Source of the DNA: a virus
Strand: one strand, 5' to 3'
IMG/VR virus record: IMGVR_UViG_3300042691_055937
Coordinates: 1-41,113 of that record
Length of the DNA: 41,113 nucleotides
Shown here one piece after another: positions 3,015 through 41,113 of the stretch; positions within the stretch are counted from its first letter, which is position 1; every line of letters starts with the position of its first letter. Under the pieces are notes generated by a model, which made no database searches, was not told the origin of the DNA, and saw only the letters and a program-made list of their open reading frames with translations. The position numbers and the translations under genes were made by a program.

Positions 3015-4363
3015 GTTGTGATGCGGGCGAAACCGGCGCCGCCTGCGCCGCCTGCGCCCGAGTTGGTGCCGTTGGTGGAGCCTGCACCGCCGCCGCCGCC
3101 CGCAGCTATGCCGCCAGCGCCACCGTTGCGCGTGACATTGCCTGCGCTGGGCGGTGCGCCGCCCCCGCCGCCTTGGAACGCCGCCCCTGCTCCGCCGTTT
3201 GTATCGCTGCCGCCAGTGCCGCCGCCGCCAGTGGCAGCGCCGCTCGACCCGCCTGCACCCGAGGCGTAAGCGGCATTAGCGTTAGTGACGCCGCCGCCGC
3301 CGCCGCCACCAGCACCGCCATTGACGGAGCCAAGGCCAGGACCGCCGAACGATCCGGTGCTGCCGGCGCCAGCGCCACCCACACCGCCGCCGCCGCCCGC
3401 AGAGTTAGGGCCACCAGTGCCAGGGTTATTCGAGTTGTTTGTCATACCAGCAGACCACGGCGCGCCGCCGCTGCCGCCGTTTGACCCGCTGTCAACGCCG
3501 CCGCCGCCGCCGCCCCCGCCAAAGGCGGACAGCAGCGCTCCAAAACTGGTGGTGCCGCCAGCGCCACCGTTATTCCCATCAGTATTATCGACCGTAACGC
3601 TGGCACCCGCCGTGCCAGCGGCCCCGATGGTCACTGATATTGGTGACCCAAGTTCGCTCGCCAAAAACATTCGCGCATTATACCCACCGCCTCCGCCGCC
3701 GCTGCCGCCAGTGCGAGTGCTTCCCACCGCATTACGCCGCCCCGACCCGCCCCCGCCGCCGCCGCCCCAGAGTTCGACAAGCACAAAGGTTGCGCCAGCG
3801 GGCTTCGTCCAGTTGCCAGAGCCAGTGAACGTCTGGATATTCGGTGCCGAAGCCCCATCGCCTTTGTCGCCCTTCAACCCTGTCAGGTCGATCACCTGAA
3901 TGGCGATGTTGTTCGCGGTGATTGTCGAAGATGCGAAGTTGAGGGCGCTGATACGATAGTTGGTCGCACCTGCGCCCGGCTCATGCAGGAAGGCGATGCT
4001 TGCCGTGCCAAATGGTGACGATGCAATCCCAGTGCTGGCAGACGCCGCTTCCTTCAAGAGCGTGCCGCTGTTGTTGGTGCCTTGCCGAAGGCGCATGGTT
4101 GCAGCGCGAGCGGTGGTGCCAGTGTCTTTCGTAAAGTTGGCGTGCGCGAGGATCAGCAGCTTGCGGTTCGCAGCACCCGCCGAAACCGCAACCGTCGCCA
4201 GTTCGATTTCCGCTGTAGTGGTAAGGCTAACCGTGCCAGTTGGCTGACTGATGAACGTGGTCATCGGGCCAGCGCCGGCAAGTGCGGCAATCTCGCTCAA
4301 CGGCGCCTTATAGAGCGTTCCGCCTCGCTCGACGACTGTGACATCGGTTCCGGCTGCGGGCAT
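3005..4363 (-). CDS. Glycine-rich tail fibre / receptor-binding protein
   Basis: A 452-aa fibre protein. Residues 1-30 carry ERGGTLYK and a following helix, shared with the gene upstream. Residues 35-155 look like a beta-rich shaft, ending in a short collagen-like GLKGDKGDG. NIQTFTGSGNWTKPAGATFVLVELWG begins a domain seen in phage fibres, followed by about 250 residues extremely rich in Gly (runs of six to nine), ending RITTWI. Glycine-rich fibre tips of this kind are known adhesins, for example polyglycine-II tips in some phages. The ATG overlaps the stop of the previous gene as TAATG. A GTG or ATG of the DUF4376 gene follows at once. Confidence 0.8.
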   Translation of the reverse strand: MPAAGTDVTVVERGGTLYKAPLSEIAALAGAGPMTTFISQPTGTVSLTTTAEIELATVAVSAGAANRKLLILAHANFTKDTGTTARAATMRLRQGTNNSGTLLKEAASASTGIASSPFGTASIAFLHEPGAGATNYRISALNFASSTITANNIAIQVIDLTGLKGDKGDGASAPNIQTFTGSGNWTKPAGATFVLVELWGGGGGGGSGRRNAVGSTRTGGSGGGGGGYNARMFLASELGSPISVTIGAAGTAGASVTVDNTDGNNGGAGGTTSFGALLSAFGGGGGGGGVDSGSNGGSGGAPWSAGMTNNSNNPGTGGPNSAGGGGGVGGAGAGSTGSFGGPGLGSVNGGAGGGGGGGVTNANAAYASGAGGSSGAATGGGGTGGSDTNGGAGAAFQGGGGGAPPSAGNVTRNGGAGGIAAGGGGGAGSTNGTNSGAGGAGGAGFARITTWI

Positions 4364-4950
4364 TACGGTGCGCTCGTCAGGTTCGCGATCGAGAAGCCGA
4401 GCTGCTGGCCACTCAGTGTCAGCGGGTTGGTGCTTGCGCTGCCCGCCAACGTCACCGCCGCGTGTGATGCGGTTTCGAGCGCATCCAGATCCACCGCCTG
4501 AGTGATCGAAATGTGGCCGAGCTTGTTGAACTGCGCCGGCACCATCAGGCCCGCGTTCGTGCCATCCGCTGCCGGAATCGTCGCGTCTGTGCCGGTGTCG
4601 CTGGTGACAACGCCGTTCGTCGCGCTGGCCGAATAGGCAAGGTTGGTGTTGCCCCCAACCGTAAGGTCAAGGCTTTCCTGTTCGGCAATCTTGCGCCAAG
4701 TGCCCGAGGACAGCCACTGATAAAGGGCCCACCCAGTATCGACCGTGGCATCAGCAGAGGCATCATCGACCATCACGCGGTCGCCAGCGCTCATACTGCC
4801 GTCGAGAGCATTGCGAGCGGCAATGTCGGCAACCCGATATTGCGAGGTGCCGATCTGGCCTTCGACGTAGGCAAGAATGTCGGAGGCAAGCGTCTTGTAG
4901 AGTGTGCCGCCGCGCGAAATGACAAAGCTGTCAGAACCTTGAACTGCCAT
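4363..4950 (-). CDS. Tail fibre-like structural protein
   Basis: A 195-aa protein with AGGAG 8 nt before the ATG. The N-terminus carries SRGGTLYK followed by a helix (TLASDILAYVEGQI), closely similar in layout to the N-terminus of the next gene, which implies a shared docking peptide. The middle segment (AARNALDGSMSAGDRVMVDDASADATVDTGWALYQWLSSGTWRKIAEQ) is the small beta module often found in phage tail proteins. The C-terminal half is Ser/Thr/Ala-rich and probably beta-structured. It is coupled to the glycine-rich fibre gene by a 1-bp stop/start overlap. Receptor binding or a fibre adaptor role is inferred. Confidence 0.6.
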   Translation of the reverse strand: MAVQGSDSFVISRGGTLYKTLASDILAYVEGQIGTSQYRVADIAARNALDGSMSAGDRVMVDDASADATVDTGWALYQWLSSGTWRKIAEQESLDLTVGGNTNLAYSASATNGVVTSDTGTDATIPAADGTNAGLMVPAQFNKLGHISITQAVDLDALETASHAAVTLAGSASTNPLTLSGQQLGFSIANLTSAP

Positions 4951-4952
4951 GA

Positions 4953-5180
4953 TTATGCTCCTGGTGCTAGAGGTAGTTCTTCAATGTTGATCCGGATGTC
5001 GTTGCCGATAACCGCGATGCCGTCGCCGCCGGTGACGTTTGCGGAAGCGGTCGGGACGATGAAGCCAGCAAGGTCGGTCGCGCCGGTTCTGGCGATTGCC
5101 TCAAGCGCGCCGGCCGGGCCGCGCCAGCGCGTTTCGACAGCGCGCGGCGGCACCCGCCAGCGAAGCAGGATCCCGCTCAC
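4953..5180 (-). CDS. Small tail-region protein, 75 aa, unknown
   Basis: It starts at a GTG that overlaps the stop of the preceding gene (GTGA), so it is translationally coupled. The protein is basic at the N-terminus (LLRWRVPPRAVETRWRGPAG) and then beta-like (NVTGGDGIAVIGNDIRINIEELP). I do not recognise the family. It lies between two tail-protein genes with no spacing, ending 2 bp before the fibre ATG, and is most likely a minor tail or fibre-adaptor component. Confidence 0.55.
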   Translation of the reverse strand: MSGILLRWRVPPRAVETRWRGPAGALEAIARTGATDLAGFIVPTASANVTGGDGIAVIGNDIRINIEELPLAPGA

Positions 5181-5521
5181 GCCACCGCCGCCTTCGTCAA
5201 AGCGATCAGCGCCGTGCTGTCGGTGATGTCGATGGTGCCGCCAGCGCCTGTCAGCTTGGCGTCGATGCCGTAGAAGCCTTCCGACAAATCAGCCGATTGG
5301 GCCGCCGCCATGCTGATGTTCCAGCCTGCCGGAAAGTCCCCACTCGCTGCGCGCGGCGCTACCGTCATAGCAATCGGCGTGAAGCTGGATTCAGGCCGGA
5401 AAAGGCTGCGCTCCATGCTGCGCACGATCCATGCCTGCACGGTGACAGACGATGCGTTGCCGCTGACCGCATCCAGTGCGATGGCGATGTCTTCGCCGAT
5501 GCGGAAGGTGCCTAGAAGCAT
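5177..5521 (-). CDS. Small tail-region protein, 114 aa, unknown
   Basis: The ATG at 5521 is preceded by GGAG at 9 nt. The sequence alternates short hydrophobic and polar stretches (IGEDIAIALDAVSGNASSVTVQAWIVRSM, FYGIDAKLTGAGGTIDITDSTALIALTKAAVA), which suggests an immunoglobulin-like beta sandwich. Such small beta proteins often accompany tail-tip proteins. No family is recognised. It is part of the leftward tail operon, with a GTGA overlap to the next gene. Confidence 0.55.
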   Translation of the reverse strand: MLLGTFRIGEDIAIALDAVSGNASSVTVQAWIVRSMERSLFRPESSFTPIAMTVAPRAASGDFPAGWNISMAAAQSADLSEGFYGIDAKLTGAGGTIDITDSTALIALTKAAVA

Positions 5522-5553
5522 TCAGGTTTCTCCGGGACAGATGAGGGTGGCTC

Positions 5554-5688
5554 TCACGGCTCAACGCACTGGGTATCGGGCGGGCAGTCCGGGTTTGATG
5601 TCGGCAGCGGGTCGGGCTGCTCGGTCGGCGCTGCCGGTTCGCAAGCGGTGAGCGCGAGCGCAAAAGCGGCGATTGCGATGTGCTTCAT
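5554..5688 (-). CDS. Tiny lipoprotein in the tail operon, 44 aa
   Basis: A short ORF 11 bp downstream of the stop of the giant tail-tip gene, with AAAGG just upstream of its ATG. The translation has a textbook lipoprotein signal: MKHIAIAAFALALTAC, cleavage before Cys16 (lipobox LTAC), then an acidic, proline-rich mature peptide of 29 residues with two further Cys (NPDC and TQC). The mature part is rich in Pro, Asp and Glu (EPAAPTEQPDPLP). A secreted or outer-membrane-anchored mini-lipoprotein in a tail operon could act in lysis (Rz1-like) or block receptors against superinfection, as the T5 Llp lipoprotein does. Either role is inference. Confidence 0.65.
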   Translation of the reverse strand: MKHIAIAAFALALTACEPAAPTEQPDPLPTSNPDCPPDTQCVEP

Positions 5689-5699
5689 GGACCTTTTTC

Positions 5700-8600
5700 C
5701 TATCCTTGAGTTGAGATGATGCCGAGCGTCTGCGCGATTGTGCCCGGGCCAGACGAAGGCTCTGGCCCCGTCCCGTTAAGCGGGCGGCTCGTGAGCTTGA
5801 GGCGATAGAGCATATTGCCATCAACGGTCGTGGTGTCGGTCGTTGTTGCCGAGTTCGACGAGCTGAAGGTGACGGTGCCGGGTTCGGTCGGGCCGAGCGA
5901 GGCCGTCCATGTCCGCGTGATCGTGTAGCTGAAGGTGGCCACGGTGGTCCAAGATGAGCCGCCGTTCACGCTTCGCTCAAGCGTCAGGGCCGCAGTGCTT
6001 GTGCTGCTGCCTGCGGTCCCGTGGGTCGTGTGCTCGCCGGACCACGAGAAATTGTAACTCGTGATGACCGTTCGGGAGCCGACGATCGAAGTGAATTCTC
6101 CCAGGGTCACGGAGGCGTCGGCGCCGGTCAGCGTAGATTGTGCCGCGTTCTTGCGCACACCCGCACTCAGGCTGCCGCCGAAGTAGGCATCACCGTTGGT
6201 CTTGAGATACGAGATGGCGTTGGCTTCGGTGCAGAGGCTAACATTGGCGCCCGAAGGGGTGGGGCCGAACCACTCAATAAACTGGCTGGCCGACCCGAAG
6301 CCGGACCCGCTCACCTTCATGAAGGCGCCATCGTTGAAGATGATGCGCGCGTTGTTGAGCTCGAACCGGGCCTTGTTGTCCGAACTGCGCAGCGTGCCCG
6401 CCGTCACCTCGCCGATGTTGGCGTTGATCGCGGAAAGCTGAGTGACGCTGATCTTCGCTGCCGTAACCGCACCGGCCTGAATCTTGTTGGCCGTGATCGC
6501 GTCTGTGGCGATCTCGGTAGCGGTCACAGCGTTCGCCGCGATCTTACCGGCAATGACGGCGCCCGCCGCAATCTCGGCCGCCTGCACCGCGCCTGCCGCG
6601 ATCTTACCCGCCACAACAGCGCCCGCCGCGATCTCGGTAGCGGTCACAGCGCCTGCGGCTATTTTTCCCGCGACCACAGCGCCTGCTGCGATTTCGGTTG
6701 CCGTAACCGCGCCAGCATTGATCTTCCCGGCAGTAACCGCATTGGCCGCGATCTTGTCTGCGACAACGGCATTTGCGGCAATCTCGCTGGCCGTCACTGC
6801 ATTCGCTGCGATCTTGGCCGCCGTAATCGCATCATCGGTGATTTGCGTTGTCGTGATCTGGCCGGTGATCTTTGTCGCGGCAAGGGCGGCGATCTGGGCA
6901 TCGGTCAATTGCCCAGTCACCTTGGTGGCAGCGATGGCTGCAATCTGCGCATCCGAAAGCTGCCCGGTGACTTTGGACGCCGCCAGCGCCGCAATCTGAG
7001 AGTCGGCAAGCTGACCGCTGATGTCCACCGCAGGAACGGCGGTCGTCCACGCCGATCCTGTGTAGCGATAGAGCTTGTCGTCGGTGGTAAGAAAGACGAT
7101 GCGCCCTTCAAACAGATCTGTCACCGGCAGCGTGTCAACAATCTCATAGCCGCCGCGCGTCTTGGCGAGCGTAAAGTCCTTGTCGATGGTGATGCCAGCG
7201 AAGGCACCCGATCCGGTCGCGCGAATGGTCAGCGTGGCGGTATTGACCGCAGCGTTCCCAAACTGCCCCGCCGAGGCGCCCGCGCCCGTCACCGTGTAGG
7301 TCTGACCGACATAGCTCACGGTCAGCGACTGTGGGTTAGCCTGCGTGCTCAGCGTGAAGTTGGCGCTGACATCGGTGCTGCCCTGAAAAACCCGGAAACT
7401 GCCAGTTGCGCCCGCATAAGACACCACGTTGCCGTTCGCGTAAGCGAAGACACTGAAGCTCTCGTTGGTCAGGAAGCCGGTGATCGCCGGCGTGCCAGCA
7501 GCGCCAGTCGCGCCGACATCCCCGCGGGGCGATTTCGCCAAGCTGTAGATCCGGTCGTAGTTCACGCCGTTGAAGGTGGCGCGAAGGGTCGCCGTCGCAC
7601 TCAGCGCATAGGGGTCGCGGACAGTGTAAACGCCGGTCGATGCGTTGAACGTGATCCACGGGGCATAGGGCGCCAGCGTGGTGCTCTGCTGCACCATCGC
7701 GCCCCACGCGAGGATGCCGCTGTTGGTCACACCCGCGTAGGAAACCATGCCGGTCGCAGCTTCGGGCGACGGCGTGCCGGACAGAACGGGCTGTGCGTAT
7801 AGAAGATGGGTTTCGGTGCCGCTTCCGACCGTGCCCCAGACCCACGCGCGATACCAGCCATTGCCGACAGCCGTGATGCCGGCCCCAAGAACCGTTCCGC
7901 TAGATCCGGCGTTTTGCTGGGTGACAGTGCCAGCGCTCAGATCAAAGGTCGCGCCGAACCACCTGTTCGATGTGGCCGTGCCGTAGATGATGCGGGCGAA
8001 AGTCCGTTCTTCGGCGCGGAAGTGGATGCTGGCGATGTAGGTGCCCGCAGGGCGCGAGACGATTGTAAGGCGCCGCGCCCAAGTCGCCGTCGAGGTATTC
8101 GCCTCGAAAATCTTGTCGGCAGTCGTGCCACCAAGCGGGTCAAGCGTGGCGACATTGCTGGTCGCCCCCGCATTCAGACTTGTCCAAAGCTCTAGCGCTT
8201 CGGGGTTGGGGGCGAGGTTCGATCCCCCAGTGTTCGCGGGGGTGGTGGAGACAATCGAAAAGGTGGGAGAGACGAGATCGGCGCCGGAGCGCACTTGCAT
8301 GGTTCCGCCTGCGCCGGAATAGTCGCCATTGAACCCGAGCGCATCAGTCTGGACAGAGTGTGCTTCATTTGTGAGGGTGGCCGATACACCTGCGACACCG
8401 TCCCTGAGACGAACGACCGTCACTTGGTCCGTAAGCGCGCCGAGCGTTGCGGTTACAACCGCGTAAGCTGCCGCGCCAAAGTTAGCGAGGCTGAGGGTTC
8501 GGGTGTCCCCGGTGCCAGTCAGCGTGGCTGCCCCGAGACTGGCGCCGGATGCGTCGAAGAGAGTGCCGGCAAATACGACAGTCCCGCTCACATTCTGCCT

Positions 8601-31956: not shown

Positions 31957-33159
31957 TCAGACCCTCATCGGCATCAGGACGCAGAAGAATGCCGTGTCCG
32001 CCGGATCGCGCAGGGTGCACGGATCGCCGGCGGTATCGTCCCGCGGCCACTGGAAATCGATTTCCTCGCCGGTAAAGCCGGTCAGGCAGTCGACCAGATA
32101 TTCCCCGTTGAAGCTCGCAATCTTGTGACCGGCCGGAAAGCCATGCTCGGCCGCGACATCGACATGCGCCCCGCCGAGATCGTGGCACTCGAGCGAAACC
32201 CTGATGCCAGCCTCGCGCGCATCAAGCCGCACCGCCCGCGTCCGCGTCGTGGAAAACGGCGTCAGCGCCCTGATCGCCGCCAGCAGCTCGGCGCGGTTCA
32301 TCCGGACCGAGCTTGCCACACCATTCGGGATCACCCGCGCGTAATCCGGATAGACCCCGTCGATCAGCTTGCTCGTCAGCGTCAGCCCGAGCCCGCCAGC
32401 GCTGCCGGCAAAGGCAATGCGCGGCGATCCCTTGGCCTCAGGGGCAAGAGTGTTTTCGGGCCGGTTGGGCAATCCCGCACGGCCATAGCTGAGCCGCACC
32501 GCGTCCTTGCTCTTGGCAAAGTGCTGCATCACCTTGAGAATGAAGCGCCGCGGAATGATCGTGCGCGGCGGAACATCGCCCTGGGCGCCGGGCAGCGGAA
32601 CATCGACGATCATCAGCCGGTGCCCGTCGGTCGCTACGAAGCGCCACAGCCACTCGCCGATGCGCTCCATCGCGATACCGTTGAGGTAATAGCGCCTCTC
32701 TTCGAGCGAAATGGCCGGCATCACGCGGGCGATCTGCGCCAGCTCGGCCGCACCGAGATCGCACCCGAACTCTTCGACAGCGATCACTTTCATGACCGGA
32801 AACTCGTCAGCGGGCAGGGTGTTGATGCTGGCCGAGAGCGCGCCGCTGGCGATCTGCACCCGCGCATCCTTGCCTTCTCCGGCAAAGGCCAAGTCAACCG
32901 TGTCGCCGCCGACCTGCTTGATCGACCGCGCCACCTGCTTCGCGCCGCGCAGCGCAAAGGGCGCCAGCCCCACGCCCGAATAGGGCATCTCGACCACGGC
33001 AGAGGTGTCGAGATCGGTCGCGTCGAGACGCAACTTGCCATTGGCCGTGACCTTGATGGTCTCGAGGATCGGGATCCGCGCATGACGGTCGGCGACGCTG
33101 GCGGCAATATCGAGCGCACGGGTGAATTCCCTGCGATGGGCAGTCATGATCTGGCTCAT
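31957..33159 (-). CDS. dnaN: Phage DNA polymerase III sliding clamp (beta subunit-like)
   Basis: A 400-aa protein with the three-domain beta-clamp layout. Recognisable segments are IPILETIKVTANGKLRLDATDLD in domain 1, VATDGHRLMIVDVPL in domain 2 (the T-D-G-H-R-L box), and FNGEYLVDCL plus the C-terminal FFCVLMPMRV in domain 3 (bacterial clamps end MPMRL). The clamp tethers the replicative polymerase to DNA. Phages usually borrow the host clamp, so an own copy is uncommon; it may recruit host Pol III to phage DNA or compete for clamp-binding proteins. GGGAG lies 6 nt before its ATG, which overlaps the upstream stop. Confidence 0.88.
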   Translation of the reverse strand: MSQIMTAHRREFTRALDIAASVADRHARIPILETIKVTANGKLRLDATDLDTSAVVEMPYSGVGLAPFALRGAKQVARSIKQVGGDTVDLAFAGEGKDARVQIASGALSASINTLPADEFPVMKVIAVEEFGCDLGAAELAQIARVMPAISLEERRYYLNGIAMERIGEWLWRFVATDGHRLMIVDVPLPGAQGDVPPRTIIPRRFILKVMQHFAKSKDAVRLSYGRAGLPNRPENTLAPEAKGSPRIAFAGSAGGLGLTLTSKLIDGVYPDYARVIPNGVASSVRMNRAELLAAIRALTPFSTTRTRAVRLDAREAGIRVSLECHDLGGAHVDVAAEHGFPAGHKIASFNGEYLVDCLTGFTGEEIDFQWPRDDTAGDPCTLRDPADTAFFCVLMPMRV

Positions 33160-34820: not shown

Positions 34821-34850
34821 CTTATGCGGGGTATAACCCGCACATGTCAA
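34821..34850 (-). promoter_or_regulatory. Leftward early promoter (PR-like)
   Basis: On the minus strand TTGACA (34850-34845) is a perfect -35 box, and CATAAG (34826-34821) an acceptable -10 at 18-bp spacing. Operator O1 fills most of the spacer and O2 overlaps the -35 by one base, so bound repressor would block RNA polymerase. It drives the cro-like gene and the replication operon. Confidence 0.65.
34826..34841. promoter_or_regulatory. Operator O1, GCGGGGTATAACCCGC
   Basis: A near-perfect 16-bp palindrome between the -35 and -10 of the leftward promoter, extended to 18 bp by flanking T and A. One of five copies of GCGGG-N-TA-NNN-CCCGC in the window, all within 1.7 kb. Confidence 0.85.
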
Positions 34851-34900: not shown

Positions 34901-35635
34901 ATGGCGCAAAACCCCGAAAACGCCCTTTACGATCGCATCGACGCTCAGCGCGAACAGCTGGGGATAAGCGCCCGCGAGCTGTCCCTGCGTGTCACCGGCA
35001 AGCCCGATCTGATCCGCGATCTTCGCCGTCGCGGTCATGCCCCCTCGGCCGACAATCTCGCCCGCATCGCCGAAGTCCTCGATGTCAGCGTCGACTGGCT
35101 GCTCGGGCGCAGCGCGAACAAGGCACCGGTCCTAAGCGAAGTCGCTTTTGCCGATCGTCGTCTCGATTGGAACGGCCCTAAACCGGATCTCGACCCCATC
35201 CCGCTGGTCGGCACCGGTGACTGTGCCACGATCCAGTTCGAAAGCGATGGCGGCCAGATGCTCGATGTCGAGCGGTGCAGCTTTAATGCCGATCACACCG
35301 TCCGCATGATTGCCCGCCCGCCCGCGTTGAAAGGCGCGCGCGATCTTTATGCCATCTACTTCCAGGGCGAGAGCATGATGCCCCGCTTCGAACCCGGCGA
35401 GGTTGGCATCGTCGATCCGACCCGCCCGCCCGGGCCCGGCGATTACGTGCTGGTGCAGCTCACCAACGGCGAGGAGGACCACGTCACCAGCGTCCTGGTC
35501 AAGCGCCTGGTCCGCACCACCCTGCGCGAAATCGTGCTCGAGCAGTTCAATCCGCCGGCCACCTTCACGGTCCCGCGCATCCGCGTCGCCCGCGTCCACC
35601 GAATCCTGCAGCAGACCGATCTGCTGTTCGGCTAA
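34901..35635 (+). CDS. CI-type repressor (HTH plus S24/LexA-like peptidase)
   Basis: A 244-aa protein. Residues 5-68 form an XRE helix-turn-helix (YDRIDAQREQLGISARELSLRVTGKPDLIRDLRRRGHAPSADNLARIAEVLDVSVDWLLG). Residues 100-230 form the S24 peptidase-like domain, with the catalytic Ser158 in FQGESMMPRFEPGE and Lys201 in VLVKRLVR. No Ala-Gly cleavage pair is visible in the linker; Val103-Gly104 in PLVGTGD is the nearest candidate. There is no ribosome site before the ATG, which abuts operator O3, so a leaderless message is likely. It should repress both early operons through the shared 16-bp operator and be inactivated in the SOS response. Confidence 0.9.
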   Translation: MAQNPENALYDRIDAQREQLGISARELSLRVTGKPDLIRDLRRRGHAPSADNLARIAEVLDVSVDWLLGRSANKAPVLSEVAFADRRLDWNGPKPDLDPIPLVGTGDCATIQFESDGGQMLDVERCSFNADHTVRMIARPPALKGARDLYAIYFQGESMMPRFEPGEVGIVDPTRPPGPGDYVLVQLTNGEEDHVTSVLVKRLVRTTLREIVLEQFNPPATFTVPRIRVARVHRILQQTDLLFG

Positions 35636-36069
35636 CGCGATCCCGCGATCACAGCGAAGACAAGCAGGGCGGACAGCAGCAACGCGCACCCGATCGCCCA
35701 TCGGCCGACCCGCGCAGCGAACTGCTCGGCTTCTGCGTCAAGATCGCGCGAGCTGCGATCCCCAGCAATTGGCCAGATTGTCACTTTCAATCTGACACCG
35801 AGGTGCCCCGACCGCCCATCCTTGCCGACAAAGGCGACCTCGGCATCGACGTCCTTGCCCTCGTCCAGCAGGGCACTCGTCAGCCACCCTTCGCGCGGAA
35901 GGTAGCCAATGGTCTGCCCGCGATGATTGTCCACCCTGATCGCCCGCGGATCGTAGGGATTGTCCGGCTCAGGCACCAGCAGCGCCTCTTTGCCCACCAT
36001 CCCCTTGTAGATCGCGCCTTGGTAGTTCGATTCCCCGACGACAGCGACCTCGTAGGTGCGCCCGCTCAT
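35632..36069 (-). CDS. Membrane-anchored HIRAN-domain protein
   Basis: A 145-aa protein. Residues 5-95 match the HIRAN domain (VVGESNYQGAIYKG, then EPDNPYDPRAIRV and IGYLPRE), known as a DNA-end or damaged-DNA binding module in HLTF and in bacterial proteins. Residues 124-142 are one hydrophobic helix (WAIGCALLLSALLVFAVIAG) at the very C-terminus, so the HIRAN domain should face the cytoplasm, tethered to the inner membrane. Its gene is ATGA-coupled to the lipoprotein gene and runs against cI, overlapping its stop by 4 bp. This is the place of rex in lambda. A sensor of incoming or broken DNA at the membrane is an attractive inference; no homologous system is known to me. Confidence 0.75.
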   Translation of the reverse strand: MSGRTYEVAVVGESNYQGAIYKGMVGKEALLVPEPDNPYDPRAIRVDNHRGQTIGYLPREGWLTSALLDEGKDVDAEVAFVGKDGRSGHLGVRLKVTIWPIAGDRSSRDLDAEAEQFAARVGRWAIGCALLLSALLVFAVIAGSR

Positions 36070-36380
36070 ACGCAGTTCTTGAACTTGATCACCGATACCG
36101 GCGAATTCGCCCGCCGCACCTCGACCCGCGATCCTTTGCCATCAGGCACCACCGTGTAAACGACGCCCGTCATCCCGACCGCGCTCTTGATGCTGATCAC
36201 GTAAGACCCGTCGCCGCGCGCGAAGGGCGCCGCCATGTTCTTCTCGCCGATGCAGAAGGCGACTTCCTCGGCTGATCGCGCCGAGGTGACAACCTCGTCT
36301 GCAGCCTCCGCCATGATCTCCTGCGTCGATGCGCAGCCCGCCAAACCCAGAACCGGCACCAGCCAAAACAGCTTACCCAT
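36066..36380 (-). CDS. Lipoprotein of the immunity-region cassette
   Basis: A 104-aa protein from the ATG at 36380 (GGAG 8 nt upstream). MGKLFWLVPVLGLAGC is a clean lipoprotein signal, with lipid attachment at Cys16; Ala at +2 favours the outer membrane. The mature part has an acidic helix (EIMAEAADEVVTSARSAEEVAF) then a beta region (GSYVISIKSAVGMTGVVYTVVPDGKGSRVEVRRA) ending with a Cys. It is the first gene of a two-gene minus-strand unit with the HIRAN protein. A role in blocking superinfection at the envelope is plausible; a role as a signal partner to the HIRAN protein is speculation. Confidence 0.72.
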   Translation of the reverse strand: MGKLFWLVPVLGLAGCASTQEIMAEAADEVVTSARSAEEVAFCIGEKNMAAPFARGDGSYVISIKSAVGMTGVVYTVVPDGKGSRVEVRRANSPVSVIKFKNCV

Positions 36381-36450: not shown

Positions 36451-36466
36451 GCGGGGTAAATCCCGC
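36451..36466. promoter_or_regulatory. Operator O4, GCGGGGTAAATCCCGC
   Basis: Fourth operator copy, between the lipoprotein gene and the rightward operon. It lies upstream of the rightward -35 box and could also influence the divergent lipoprotein promoter. Confidence 0.83.
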
Positions 36467-36474
36467 ATTTGGAA

Positions 36475-36503
36475 TTGACGCGGGATAAAACCCGCATTAT
36501 TCC
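36475..36503 (+). promoter_or_regulatory. Rightward early promoter (PL-like)
   Basis: TTGACG (36475-36480) is a good -35. TATTCC at 17-bp spacing is a poor -10, while CATTAT fits the consensus better but is only 14 bp away. Operator O5 covers the last base of the -35 and nearly all of the spacer. It drives the operon that begins at 36527. Confidence 0.5.
36480..36495. promoter_or_regulatory. Operator O5, GCGGGATAAAACCCGC
   Basis: Fifth operator copy, within the rightward promoter. Together with O4 it places the integrase operon under the same repressor as the leftward operon. Confidence 0.85.
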
Positions 36504-36526: not shown

Positions 36527-37054
36527 ATGACAGTTTCCCGTAAAACCACTGCCTACCAGCGGACCTTTGAGGTTTTCGCCACCTTCACTGAAGGCATGAC
36601 GGTGCACGATCTCGAAGCACTGATGGAGCAGCAGAACGACAAGAAGGCCGCTTCGAAGCGCCTCAGCCAATTTGTCAAAGAGGGGCTGGCGGTGAAGCTG
36701 CCTCGGGCAGGCCGCGTTTCCCTCTACATTCCGACCGGCAAAGGCATCGCTGCCCGCAAACTCGAGACGCGCGATCCGGCCCGCGGGCGCAAGCGCTTGC
36801 CAGAGCAGCGGTTGACCGACCTCGAGCGCGAACTTGCTCGGCTCAAGGCCTTCGAAGAACGCGCGCTCAAGCGCCACCCAGACCTTGCTACGCCGGATCA
36901 CATCCACGCCGCGAGAGAGCGCGTCTGTGCGATCCTTGACCGGAATGGCAGGACGGAAGCGGCCAAGCTGACCCTTGCCGGCATGCGTGACGACAGCAAT
37001 GAAATGCTCGTCGCGATTGAGATGGCCGGTCCGGCTCTGGGATGCGCCGCATGA
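36527..37054 (+). CDS. Early protein with winged-helix-like N-terminus, 175 aa
   Basis: The ATG follows a very strong ribosome site (AAGGGAGG, 6 nt). Residues 8-85 (TAYQRTFEVFATFTEGMTVHDLEALMEQQNDKKAASKRLSQFVKEGLAVKLPRAGRVSLYIPTGKG) look like a winged helix with a beta hairpin. A charged helical linker follows (EQRLTDLERELARLKAFEERALKRHPDL), and the C-terminus is mixed. It is the first gene of the rightward operon directly behind O5, so it is made early and repressed in the lysogen. It may be a DNA-binding regulator or antirepressor; I do not recognise a named family. Confidence 0.65.
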   Translation: MTVSRKTTAYQRTFEVFATFTEGMTVHDLEALMEQQNDKKAASKRLSQFVKEGLAVKLPRAGRVSLYIPTGKGIAARKLETRDPARGRKRLPEQRLTDLERELARLKAFEERALKRHPDLATPDHIHAARERVCAILDRNGRTEAAKLTLAGMRDDSNEMLVAIEMAGPALGCAA

Positions 37055-38078: not shown

Positions 38079-38341
38079 TGAGCCCCACTCGCCGCCAAAA
38101 GCTGACCAGAGCGGCCGATCTGATCCGCGCCGCCAGCAACGCCGACAGCTTCGATGCCGAGGCGGTCAAGAACGCCCTGCGCGCCATGGGCGCCAAGATC
38201 GTCGATCAGCACACCAACACCTACTCGGTCCGCCTCGCCGGCGTCACCGCCAGCAGCACTTACGACAAGGGCGAGCACCTGCTGGTCCGCTGGGCCGCCA
38301 ACGCCCGCGTCGCACTGGCAGAGGATCCCGCTAATGGCTGA
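38078..38341 (+). CDS. Hypothetical early protein, 87 aa
   Basis: Starts at the TAATG overlap. MSPTRRQKLTRAADLIRAASNADSFDAEAVKNALRAMGAKIV is helical, then QHTNTYSVRLAGVTASSTYDKGEHLLVRWAANARVA is beta-like. No family recognised. It overlaps the DUF5131 gene by 8 bp. Confidence 0.55.
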   Translation: MSPTRRQKLTRAADLIRAASNADSFDAEAVKNALRAMGAKIVDQHTNTYSVRLAGVTASSTYDKGEHLLVRWAANARVALAEDPANG

Positions 38342-39335
38342 CAACACCCACATCGAATGGACCGAGGCGACCTGGAACCCGATCACCGGCTGTTCCGTCA
38401 CCAGCCCGGGCTGCACCAATTGCTACGCGATGCAGCTCGCCGGCACCCGCCTCGCCGATCACCCGAGCCGCGCGGGCCTCACCCGCGAGATCAACGGCAA
38501 CCACGTCTGGACGGGCGAGGTCCGGTTCAACGAGCAATGGCTGGACCAGCCCCTGCGCTGGAAGCGTCCGCGCATGATTTTCGTCTGCGCCCACGGCGAT
38601 CTGTTCCACGAAAGCGTGCCCGACGAATGGATCGACCGGGTCTTCGCGGTGATGGCGCTCGCACCGCAGCACACCTTTCAGGTGCTGACGAAGCGCTCGG
38701 CGCGGATGCGGGAGTATTTCCGCGAGAGCGCGGACTGGCGCGCGGGCTGGCGCGCGCGCATCGCCGATCTGCTCAACGAATTGAAGCCGGGGCCACTCTG
38801 GAACGGCAACGTTTATCAGGGCTGGCAGAACCTGCACGGCAGACCGGACGGCCTCCCGAACGTCTGGCTGGGCGTCTCGGTGGAAGACCAGCAGCGCGCA
38901 GACGAGCGCATCCCCGATCTGCTCGCCACCCCCGCCGCCGTCCGCTGGATCAGCGCCGAACCTCTGCTCGGGCCGGTGGATTTGTGCGCTGTTCGCAGCG
39001 GTGAGCTGCCGACCGCACCAATCGCCGGCTACATCCCACTCACCAGCACTGATCACAAGCCGGTCCGCATCGACTGGGTTGTGGCAGGCGGCGAGAGCGG
39101 CAAGGGCGCCCGCCCGATGCACCCCGATTGGGCGCGCAGCCTCCGCGACCAATGCGCCGCCGCTGGCGTCCCCTTCTTCTTCAAGCAATGGGGCAACTTT
39201 CTTCCGGCAGGGCAGGCTCCGGCGGGAAAGAAAAAGCCGTGGGTTGGGCCTCACTCACTGCCTACCACCAAGGCCTTTGCCGGTCGCCAGCTCGACGGCA
39301 TCGAACACAACGGAATGCCGGAGGGCGCGCGATGA
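38334..39335 (+). CDS. DUF5131 (phage Gp37/Gp68) family protein
   Basis: A 333-aa protein from the ATG at 38334. IEWTEATWNPITGCSVTSPGCTNCYAMQLAGTRL is the family signature, with Cys20, 27 and 30 arranged as a likely metal or iron-sulphur ligand set, as in radical-SAM-like TIM barrels. Further conserved pieces are RMIFVCAHGDLFHESVPDEWIDRVFAVM, FQVLTKRSARMREY, NVWLGVSVEDQQRADERIPDLL, RWISAEPLLGPVDL and WVVAGGESGKGARPMHPDWARSLRDQC, ending FFFKQWG. The reaction is unknown; the family is widespread in phages and islands and has been discussed as a nucleic-acid or nucleotide modifying enzyme. It belongs to the rightward operon. Confidence 0.9.
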   Translation: MADNTHIEWTEATWNPITGCSVTSPGCTNCYAMQLAGTRLADHPSRAGLTREINGNHVWTGEVRFNEQWLDQPLRWKRPRMIFVCAHGDLFHESVPDEWIDRVFAVMALAPQHTFQVLTKRSARMREYFRESADWRAGWRARIADLLNELKPGPLWNGNVYQGWQNLHGRPDGLPNVWLGVSVEDQQRADERIPDLLATPAAVRWISAEPLLGPVDLCAVRSGELPTAPIAGYIPLTSTDHKPVRIDWVVAGGESGKGARPMHPDWARSLRDQCAAAGVPFFFKQWGNFLPAGQAPAGKKKPWVGPHSLPTTKAFAGRQLDGIEHNGMPEGAR

Positions 39336-39846: not shown

Positions 39847-40172
39847 TCCCCAACCTCCTCACCGAGGCCGAGGCCGCCGCCCGCCTGCACATCGCCCCGC
39901 GCACCCTGCGCCAGCTGCGCAGCAGGGGCAAGATCCGCCACGTCCGCCCGACCCCCCGCACAATCCTCTATCGCGAGGACGACATCGCCGACTATATCGA
40001 GCGGCAGGCCCGCGAGGAGCGCCCCTCATGTCCGTCTACAAACCCGCCAAAAGCCGCTTCTGGCAATATGATTTCCAGTTCAAAGGTTGTCGGCATCACG
40101 GCTCTACGGGATGCACGGCGCGTCGCGACGCAGAACGCTACGAAGCCGAGCTCCGGCGGAAGGTCGCGCTAG
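39843..40172 (+). CDS. AlpA/MerR-type excisionase-like protein
   Basis: A 109-aa protein. Residues 1-55 (LLTEAEAAARLHIAPRTLRQLRSRGKIRHVRPTPRTILYREDDIADYIE) are a winged HTH of the AlpA/excisionase type. The C-terminal 48 residues lie inside the integrase gene in another frame; that tail is Ser/Arg-rich and may be dispensable. As in many phages, it directly precedes int and is expected to bend the attachment site DNA and favour excision. The overlap of 145 bp with int is unusually long for such pairs. Confidence 0.75.
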   Translation: MIPNLLTEAEAAARLHIAPRTLRQLRSRGKIRHVRPTPRTILYREDDIADYIERQAREERPSCPSTNPPKAASGNMISSSKVVGITALRDARRVATQNATKPSSGGRSR

Positions 40173-41113
40173 GCGAGACCGTCAAGCCGCCGATCACGCT
40201 CGATCTGGCCTGCGGCGAATGGCTCGCGCTCAAGGGCAGGCACCAGCGCAGCCACAAGACCACCGAATACCAGCTCGAAAACCTCGCCGTCGGCCTCGGC
40301 AAGAACCGCTGGCTGCACGATCTGACCCTGCGCGATCTGGACCGGTTCATCGCCCGCCGCCGCGCCTCTGTCTCCAACGCCAGCGTCAACCGCGAGATCG
40401 CGCTGCTGCGCCGGGTCTGCAACTGGTGCGAGGCCCGCGGCTATGACGTGCCCGTGATCGAATGGCGCGAGGCGAGGCTGAAAGAGAAGGCCCCCGAAAC
40501 CCGCATCCTCTCGGCCGAGGAAGAGGCCCGACTGTTCGCGCACCTGCCCGAGAGCCTGAAGCCGATCGTCGAATTCGCGCTGATCAGTGGGCAGCGCAAA
40601 GCCGAGATCGTCACCCTGCGCTGGGCCGATGTCGATCTGGTCAATGCCCGCGCCACCGTCAGCACCAAGGGCGGGCAGCGTCACACCTTCCCGCTGACCC
40701 CGCGCCTCGCCGCGATCATCCGCGCGCAGCCCAAGGTCTGCCCCCAGGTCTTCACCTACAAGGCCGAGCGCAGCGCGCCTAGGCGCAAGGATCGGGTGCA
40801 ACGTGTGAAGGGCCAGCGCTATCCCTTCAGCAAGCAGGGCTGGGACCGCAAATGGCGCCGCGCTCTGGCCGAGGCCGGGATCGAAGGCTTCCGCTTCCAC
40901 GACACGCGCCACACCGCCCTGACCCGCCTCGGCTCGATCGAGGCCGCCCAGCGCCTGGCAAACCACAGCGACATCAGGACAACGCGCCGCTACTTCCACA
41001 CCAGCGAAGACGAAGTCCGCAAGCTGATGGCCGCCGCCGAGTCCCGGAATAGTCCCGAACCGGCAGACGGCGAGGGCGCTGAAACCCGCAGAAATGCTGG
41101 GGAAAGCGCATGA
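40028..41113 (+). CDS. int: Tyrosine integrase
   Basis: A 361-aa site-specific recombinase from the ATG at 40028. The N-terminal arm-binding part (MSVYKPAKSRFWQYDFQFKG) is followed by a SAM-like core-binding domain (residues 55-140), then the catalytic domain. That domain has Arg190 in SGQRKAEIVTLRW, His291 and Arg294 in HDTRHTALTRLG, His313 in ANHSDIRTTRRYF, and Tyr322 as the nucleophile. The C-terminus is disordered and Glu/Arg-rich. It inserts and, with the excisionase-like protein, excises the prophage. The window ends with its stop codon, so the att site just beyond cannot be seen. Confidence 0.95.
   Translation: MSVYKPAKSRFWQYDFQFKGCRHHGSTGCTARRDAERYEAELRRKVALGETVKPPITLDLACGEWLALKGRHQRSHKTTEYQLENLAVGLGKNRWLHDLTLRDLDRFIARRRASVSNASVNREIALLRRVCNWCEARGYDVPVIEWREARLKEKAPETRILSAEEEARLFAHLPESLKPIVEFALISGQRKAEIVTLRWADVDLVNARATVSTKGGQRHTFPLTPRLAAIIRAQPKVCPQVFTYKAERSAPRRKDRVQRVKGQRYPFSKQGWDRKWRRALAEAGIEGFRFHDTRHTALTRLGSIEAAQRLANHSDIRTTRRYFHTSEDEVRKLMAAAESRNSPEPADGEGAETRRNAGESA

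Follow-up and report, generated by a model that had tools for sequence, protein, structure and literature searches.

A membrane-anchored HIRAN-domain protein and a lipoprotein are encoded by two minus-strand genes beside the repressor gene of a temperate tailed phage with a cI-like repressor of S24 type (IMG/VR record IMGVR_UViG_3300042691_055937, positions 1 to 41,113; this whole stretch of 41,113 nucleotides is hereafter called the window). Comparison with related phages suggested that the two genes lie in a variable cargo slot, and judging from sequence comparison, we consider it somewhat more probable than otherwise that they form an exclusion or abortive-infection cassette expressed in the lysogen. 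The features of the immunity region on which this reading is based are as follows.

34826–34841, no strand assigned: cI operator located upstream of both cI and the leftward operon; near-copies lie around 34855 and 34885
34901–35635, plus strand: cI-like repressor with HTH_3 and S24 peptidase domains (Pfam/PHROG profile matches), convergent with the cassette
35632–36069, minus strand: HIRAN-TM protein, 145 aa, with the HIRAN domain at about residues 4–99 and a helix at 108–143 containing the membrane anchor (Pfam, AlphaFold, Foldseek)
35641–35697, minus strand: predicted C-terminal transmembrane segment, residues 125–143 (hydrophobicity; positive-inside rule)
36066–36069, minus strand: ATGA in which the stop codon of the lipoprotein gene and the start codon of the HIRAN gene overlap, suggesting translational coupling (sequence)
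36066–36380, minus strand: lipoprotein, 104 aa, phrog_914 family, with C43 and C103 invariant across relatives (profile, alignment)
36333–36344, minus strand: lipobox LAGC, with A as residue +2 (sequence)
36451–36466, no strand assigned: cI operator GCGGGGTAAATCCCGC, which precedes the lipoprotein start by 71 bp
36480–36495, no strand assigned: cI operator GCGGGATAAAACCCGC; it overlaps the promoter of the rightward early genes (TTGACG at 36475)
36527–37054, plus strand: first gene in the rightward early operon and boundary of the slot (ORF position)

Both cassette genes had a positive coding score under the codon model of the phage and occupied, as originally predicted, the minus strand of the interval that separates cI from the rightward early promoter. 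The stop codons of the HIRAN gene and cI overlap (35632–35635). Operators of the form GCGGGnTAnAnCCCGC start at 34826, 36451 and 36480, and in sister phages operators are likewise found ca. 35–100 bp upstream of the slot gene. From this layout of genes and operators, the cassette converges with cI and diverges from the early promoter. The "rex position" assigned by the original prediction therefore holds for location, between cI and the early promoter, but not for transcription: rexAB is transcribed together with cI, whereas the cassette runs towards it. The promoter proposed for the cassette (TTGCGC, 17 bp, GATAAG; 36437–36409) is literally present and outside the operators, but it matches 7 of 12 consensus bases, which is chance level: a score of 7 is attained at six placements within the interval and in 93% of its shuffled versions. 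A promoter scan of the interval gave no candidate above the threshold. Expression of the cassette in the lysogen is plausible from its position.

To characterise the interval, loci with a homologous cI were gathered from viral contigs and from 398 genomes, all belonging to the family that contains a Novosphingobium genome (L049/G001). The slot was conserved among related phages and its content changed: differing genes, mostly on the strand opposite to cI, were found within the immunity region and outside the lytic operons. The slot contained a HIRAN-TM protein in L001, a TM segment with a tRNA_anti-like OB domain in L086 and L090, a TM segment with a helical domain in L088, L091 and L107, two-TM proteins in L089 and L107, a lipoprotein in L110, a TM segment with a zinc ribbon in L114 and L115 (co-directional in L115), an exported protein in L117, a TerB-like protein in L116, and a HIRAN-like domain with a TM segment and a periplasmic domain in L108. 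Membrane or lipoproteins, with membrane and lipobox calls made by simple rules, accounted for 14 of 18 convergent slot genes compared with 15 of the 193 neighbours of matched size (Fisher p = 7e-11, related sequences counted); counted by family, they made up 11 of about 14 (binomial p = 1e-7 at 14% background). L001 was left out of the 14/18 count, and its apparently frameshifted cI gene was used for position only. In the closest cI relative, L086, the slot protein matched phrog_8545, annotated as "superinfection exclusion Sie-like" (E = 2e-22), and the Pfam tRNA_anti-like family (E = 4e-15). The comparison of slot occupants thus supported the idea of a slot for exclusion or moron cargo.

One occupant joins several of these elements. 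In the prophage of G220 (L108:1–11001), a single protein fuses a HIRAN-like domain to a TM segment and a DUF3862/BLIP-like periplasmic domain; its PADLOC, PHROG and Pfam HIRAN matches were weak, and the periplasmic domain matched the moron family phrog_6148 (E = 1.5e-17).

Outside the slot, the window encodes a phage-borne DNA polymerase III beta clamp (31957–33159; three Pfam beta-clamp domains; phrog_947, E = 4e-51) and, in the early operon, a DUF5131-like protein (38334–39335; Gp37/Gp68-like by eye) that is common to L088, L110 and L112. The early region ends in differing integrases among the homologous-cI relatives: a tyrosine-type integrase in the window (40028–41113) and L090, and a serine recombinase in L089 (7715–9283) and L108 (7655–9232).

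The predicted HIRAN domain was confirmed by a match to PF08797 (E = 4.4e-11; 42.9 bits against a cut-off of 24.7) and by an AlphaFold model with a mean pLDDT of 90.9, which Foldseek aligned to crystal structures of the HLTF HIRAN domain (E = 9e-7, probability 1.00) and, as a second match, to lp_0118 (E = 9e-6). The expected C-terminal anchor was also found, as one strong hydrophobic stretch at residues 125–143 (mean Kyte–Doolittle 2.58). The HIRAN domain is predicted to be cytoplasmic, since the positive-inside rule places the N-terminus in the cytoplasm. Counts of K and R beside the anchor likewise placed the HIRAN domain in the cytoplasm in each of the eight anchored HIRAN proteins analysed, both those with a C-terminal anchor (window, L001, L108, L003 and L012) and those with an N-terminal one (L158, L063 and L008). 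The remaining slot proteins had the opposite topology, with the bulk of the protein outside.

In a profile alignment, the HLTF pocket was partly retained: the NPYD motif (N91, Y93, D94) and the Y73 position were kept, and R71 was replaced by S, Y72 by N and H110 by Y. R71, Y73, N91, D94 and H110 are further residues of this pocket. Y72 and Y93 border the nucleotide pocket of HLTF (PMC4666394), and as Y72 is replaced here, DNA-end binding by the modelled HIRAN-TM protein is plausible but should not be assumed. The suggestion that the protein senses DNA ends thus fits its fold and its predicted cytoplasmic side, although the HLTF pocket is kept only in part. The protein also differs from the HLTF/Rad5 HIRAN domains, with which it shares the fold and the NPYD motif, in being standalone and membrane-tethered and in lacking conserved R71 and Y72.

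HIRAN genes recurred beside prophage repressors in other lineages. The window HIRAN had a match in 38 of the 398 Novosphingobium-family genomes, and all of the best eight matches adjoined a repressor, compared with about 3 of 21 weaker ones (p = 4e-5). Five of the eight (L054, L055, L058, L059 and L061) were convergent with a different S24 repressor, and three (L056, L057 and L060) were co-directional with an XRE repressor and lay downstream of it; L131, L132, L133 and L134 are viral-contig copies of loci already in this count. Beyond this sample, HIRAN genes directly followed an XRE repressor in Donghicola (L024) and Novosphingobium (L049). This adjacency across lineages indicates that HIRAN keeps its place beside at least three kinds of repressor. 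The anchor does not appear essential to this placement, because no clear anchor was seen in the closest HIRANs that are linked to other repressors (L131, L159 and L162).

Anchored HIRAN proteins, with the anchor at either end, also occurred in seemingly unrelated viral contigs (L003, L005, L007, L008 and L012). In L170, a HIRAN protein that seems to carry a signal peptide (3897–4292) is encoded directly upstream of a 1060-aa protein (4405–7587) with a Cas9-like N-terminus.

The second cassette gene carries the LAGC lipoprotein signal that had been predicted (MGKLFWLVPVLGLAGC-A), and its lipobox cysteine agreed with a simple rule (KLFWLVPVLGLAGC). An alanine at position +2 of lipoproteins generally favours sorting to the outer membrane. 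The sole convincing family match was phrog_914 (E = 6.5e-7), and the two cysteines invariant in this family are as expected of a periplasmic domain. No confident PDB or viral match to the lipoprotein fold was obtained, the best being an uncharacterised protein of Pseudomonas phage phiAH14a (TM 0.60, E = 0.002). No relative was found in the viral contigs scanned with the lipoprotein, and a GenBank tblastn search gave no direct phage relatives for either cassette gene. The closest lipoprotein relative (L173) is encoded 16 bp downstream of another S24 cI, on the same strand and without a HIRAN gene. Other phrog_914 genes (L171, L172 and L177) are single and on the opposite strand within structural operons, the classic layout of a moron. 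The G344 prophage carries such a lipoprotein gene against its structural operon (L171:4329–4652), and its own cI slot contains two membrane proteins.

The expectation that the two genes would be conserved together elsewhere was not borne out, as no linked pair was detected in the 398 genomes or the other loci searched. In the nearest relative, L001, HIRAN-TM (54% identical) occurs alone. We therefore rejected the HIRAN protein and the lipoprotein as one conserved system, on the grounds of HIRAN without the lipoprotein (L001), the lipoprotein without HIRAN (L173) and the lack of a linked pair in the 398 genomes. The two genes therefore appear to be separately mobile cargo that share a transcript here by chance, and the lipoprotein is most likely a separate periplasmic moron.

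Exclusion cargo of prophages beside cI is already known as a kind, and several characterised systems resemble parts of the cassette. AbiP of Lactococcus and PdpSau of an S. aureus prophage are membrane-anchored proteins with a nucleic-acid-binding OB-like domain that stop phage replication (PMC10127798). The likeness, one of layout by description, lies in the combination of a membrane anchor with a nucleic-acid-binding domain and, for PdpSau, in prophage origin; however, their anchor is N-terminal, their domain is of OB type, and PdpSau is encoded near lysis genes rather than beside cI. Lambda RexA is a non-specific DNA-binding exclusion protein with an RdgC-like fold (PMC11077077). Like the cassette, rexAB lies between cI and the early promoter region and combines a DNA-binding partner with a membrane element, but it is co-transcribed with cI and RexB is polytopic, whereas the window genes are convergent with cI and encode a HIRAN fold with a single anchor and a lipoprotein. 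Neither Pfam, PHROGs nor PADLOC assigned the cassette proteins to a Rex family, and only a single TM segment was present. By analogy, AbiP, PdpSau and RexA are the nearest functional models of the cassette. The Sie-like phrog_8545 proteins (tRNA_anti-like, PF12869) occupy the same slot in L086 and L090 and are membrane-anchored, but their domain is predicted to be periplasmic and is not HIRAN; their profile matched none of the window proteins. For the lipoprotein, Ltp is a precedent as a small superinfection-exclusion lipoprotein encoded in the lysogeny region (PMC3952083), and SieA is a further exclusion precedent (PMC10883804). Ltp and Cor share with the window lipoprotein their small size and their place in the lysogeny region, but not sequence.

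Prokaryotic HIRAN domains, known from HipL kinases and HipN antitoxins, have been suggested to sense phage DNA ends (PMC8262856). The window protein shares the domain with HipL and HipN, but it has a single HIRAN, no HipS domain was found, and there is no adjacent kinase gene; a HipN-like toxin–antitoxin was rejected on this last ground. No PADLOC defence family covers the HIRAN-TM architecture, and PDC-M03B matches by its HIRAN part only.

In the exclusion reading, the interval from cI to the rightward early operon would be a variable slot for prophage-expressed anti-superinfection genes, occupied here by two genes on one transcript that runs away from the early promoter. The HIRAN protein would be tail-anchored in the inner membrane with its HIRAN domain at the cytoplasmic face, where it could bind the DNA ends, 3′ or single-stranded, of a superinfecting phage genome at entry or while it begins to replicate at the membrane. 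Such binding would block establishment or trigger abortive infection, as is thought for AbiP and PdpSau. The lipoprotein would act as a separable periplasmic moron, probably interfering at the envelope. The specific mechanism, in which HIRAN binds the DNA ends of superinfecting phage, is offered tentatively.

Among the alternatives, HIRAN might instead tune the lysis–lysogeny decision of the phage itself by sensing broken or replicating DNA and shifting the cI switch, as reported for lambda RexA. Its fold and its repeated placement beside repressors, mostly of RecA-responsive S24 types, would suit such a role. However, sister-phage slots hold envelope-facing and Sie-like proteins that have no connection with DNA, HIRAN genes are also found after XRE repressors lacking an S24 domain, and a membrane anchor is unexpected in a switch regulator; we consider this unlikely. 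The mixed nature of the slot families, including a TerB-like protein, and the isolated phrog_914 morons in structural operons would also accommodate host-fitness genes with no anti-phage role, acting for example in envelope stress or the uptake of plasmid or transforming DNA. We doubt this explanation too, given the Sie-like PHROG in the slot of the closest relatives and the linkage of HIRAN with repressors across lineages.

HIRAN genes are also found in phage replication modules, and DLP4 lists one there (PMC6469090). The window gene could accordingly be imagined as an accessory gene for lytic replication or repair, as in DLP4-type phages, but this gene and the early genes are on opposite strands, it lies outside the early operon, and unrelated genes replace it in close relatives, making this role improbable. 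The overlap of the HIRAN and cI stop codons, together with the many convergent genes of relatives that end < 100 bp from cI, raises the further idea that the convergent transcript controls cI by running into its 3′ end and that the proteins are incidental. Conservation of the HIRAN domain and of the lipoprotein cysteines between distant relatives, and the existence of co-directional versions, render such a purely antisense role very improbable.

The exclusion reading is therefore the one that we retain for the cassette as a whole. No membrane-anchored HIRAN linked to repressors was found in the literature searched, a search that excluded subscription journals and most preprints. Nor did it yield a report tying HIRAN to superinfection exclusion, both words occurring together only in an unrelated review, and no characterised prokaryotic HIRAN domain was found in the literature examined. 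The occurrence of HIRAN beside repressors in several unrelated phage lineages points to a putative, undescribed form of phage-encoded protection. HIRAN might even be a widespread anti-phage module of alphaproteobacterial prophages that was captured next to several unrelated repressors. In this broader proposal, which is at present speculative, anchored forms keep a DNA-end sensor at the cytoplasmic face and seize the ends of injected phage genomes, and a periplasmic part, either fused to them or encoded nearby, acts outside. The comparative pattern suggests a testable role, in which DNA-end recognition at the membrane would keep competitors out of a prophage-bearing cell. Furthermore, since each relative holds a different and mostly unannotated envelope protein, the cI-proximal slot is a place in which more exclusion genes may be sought.
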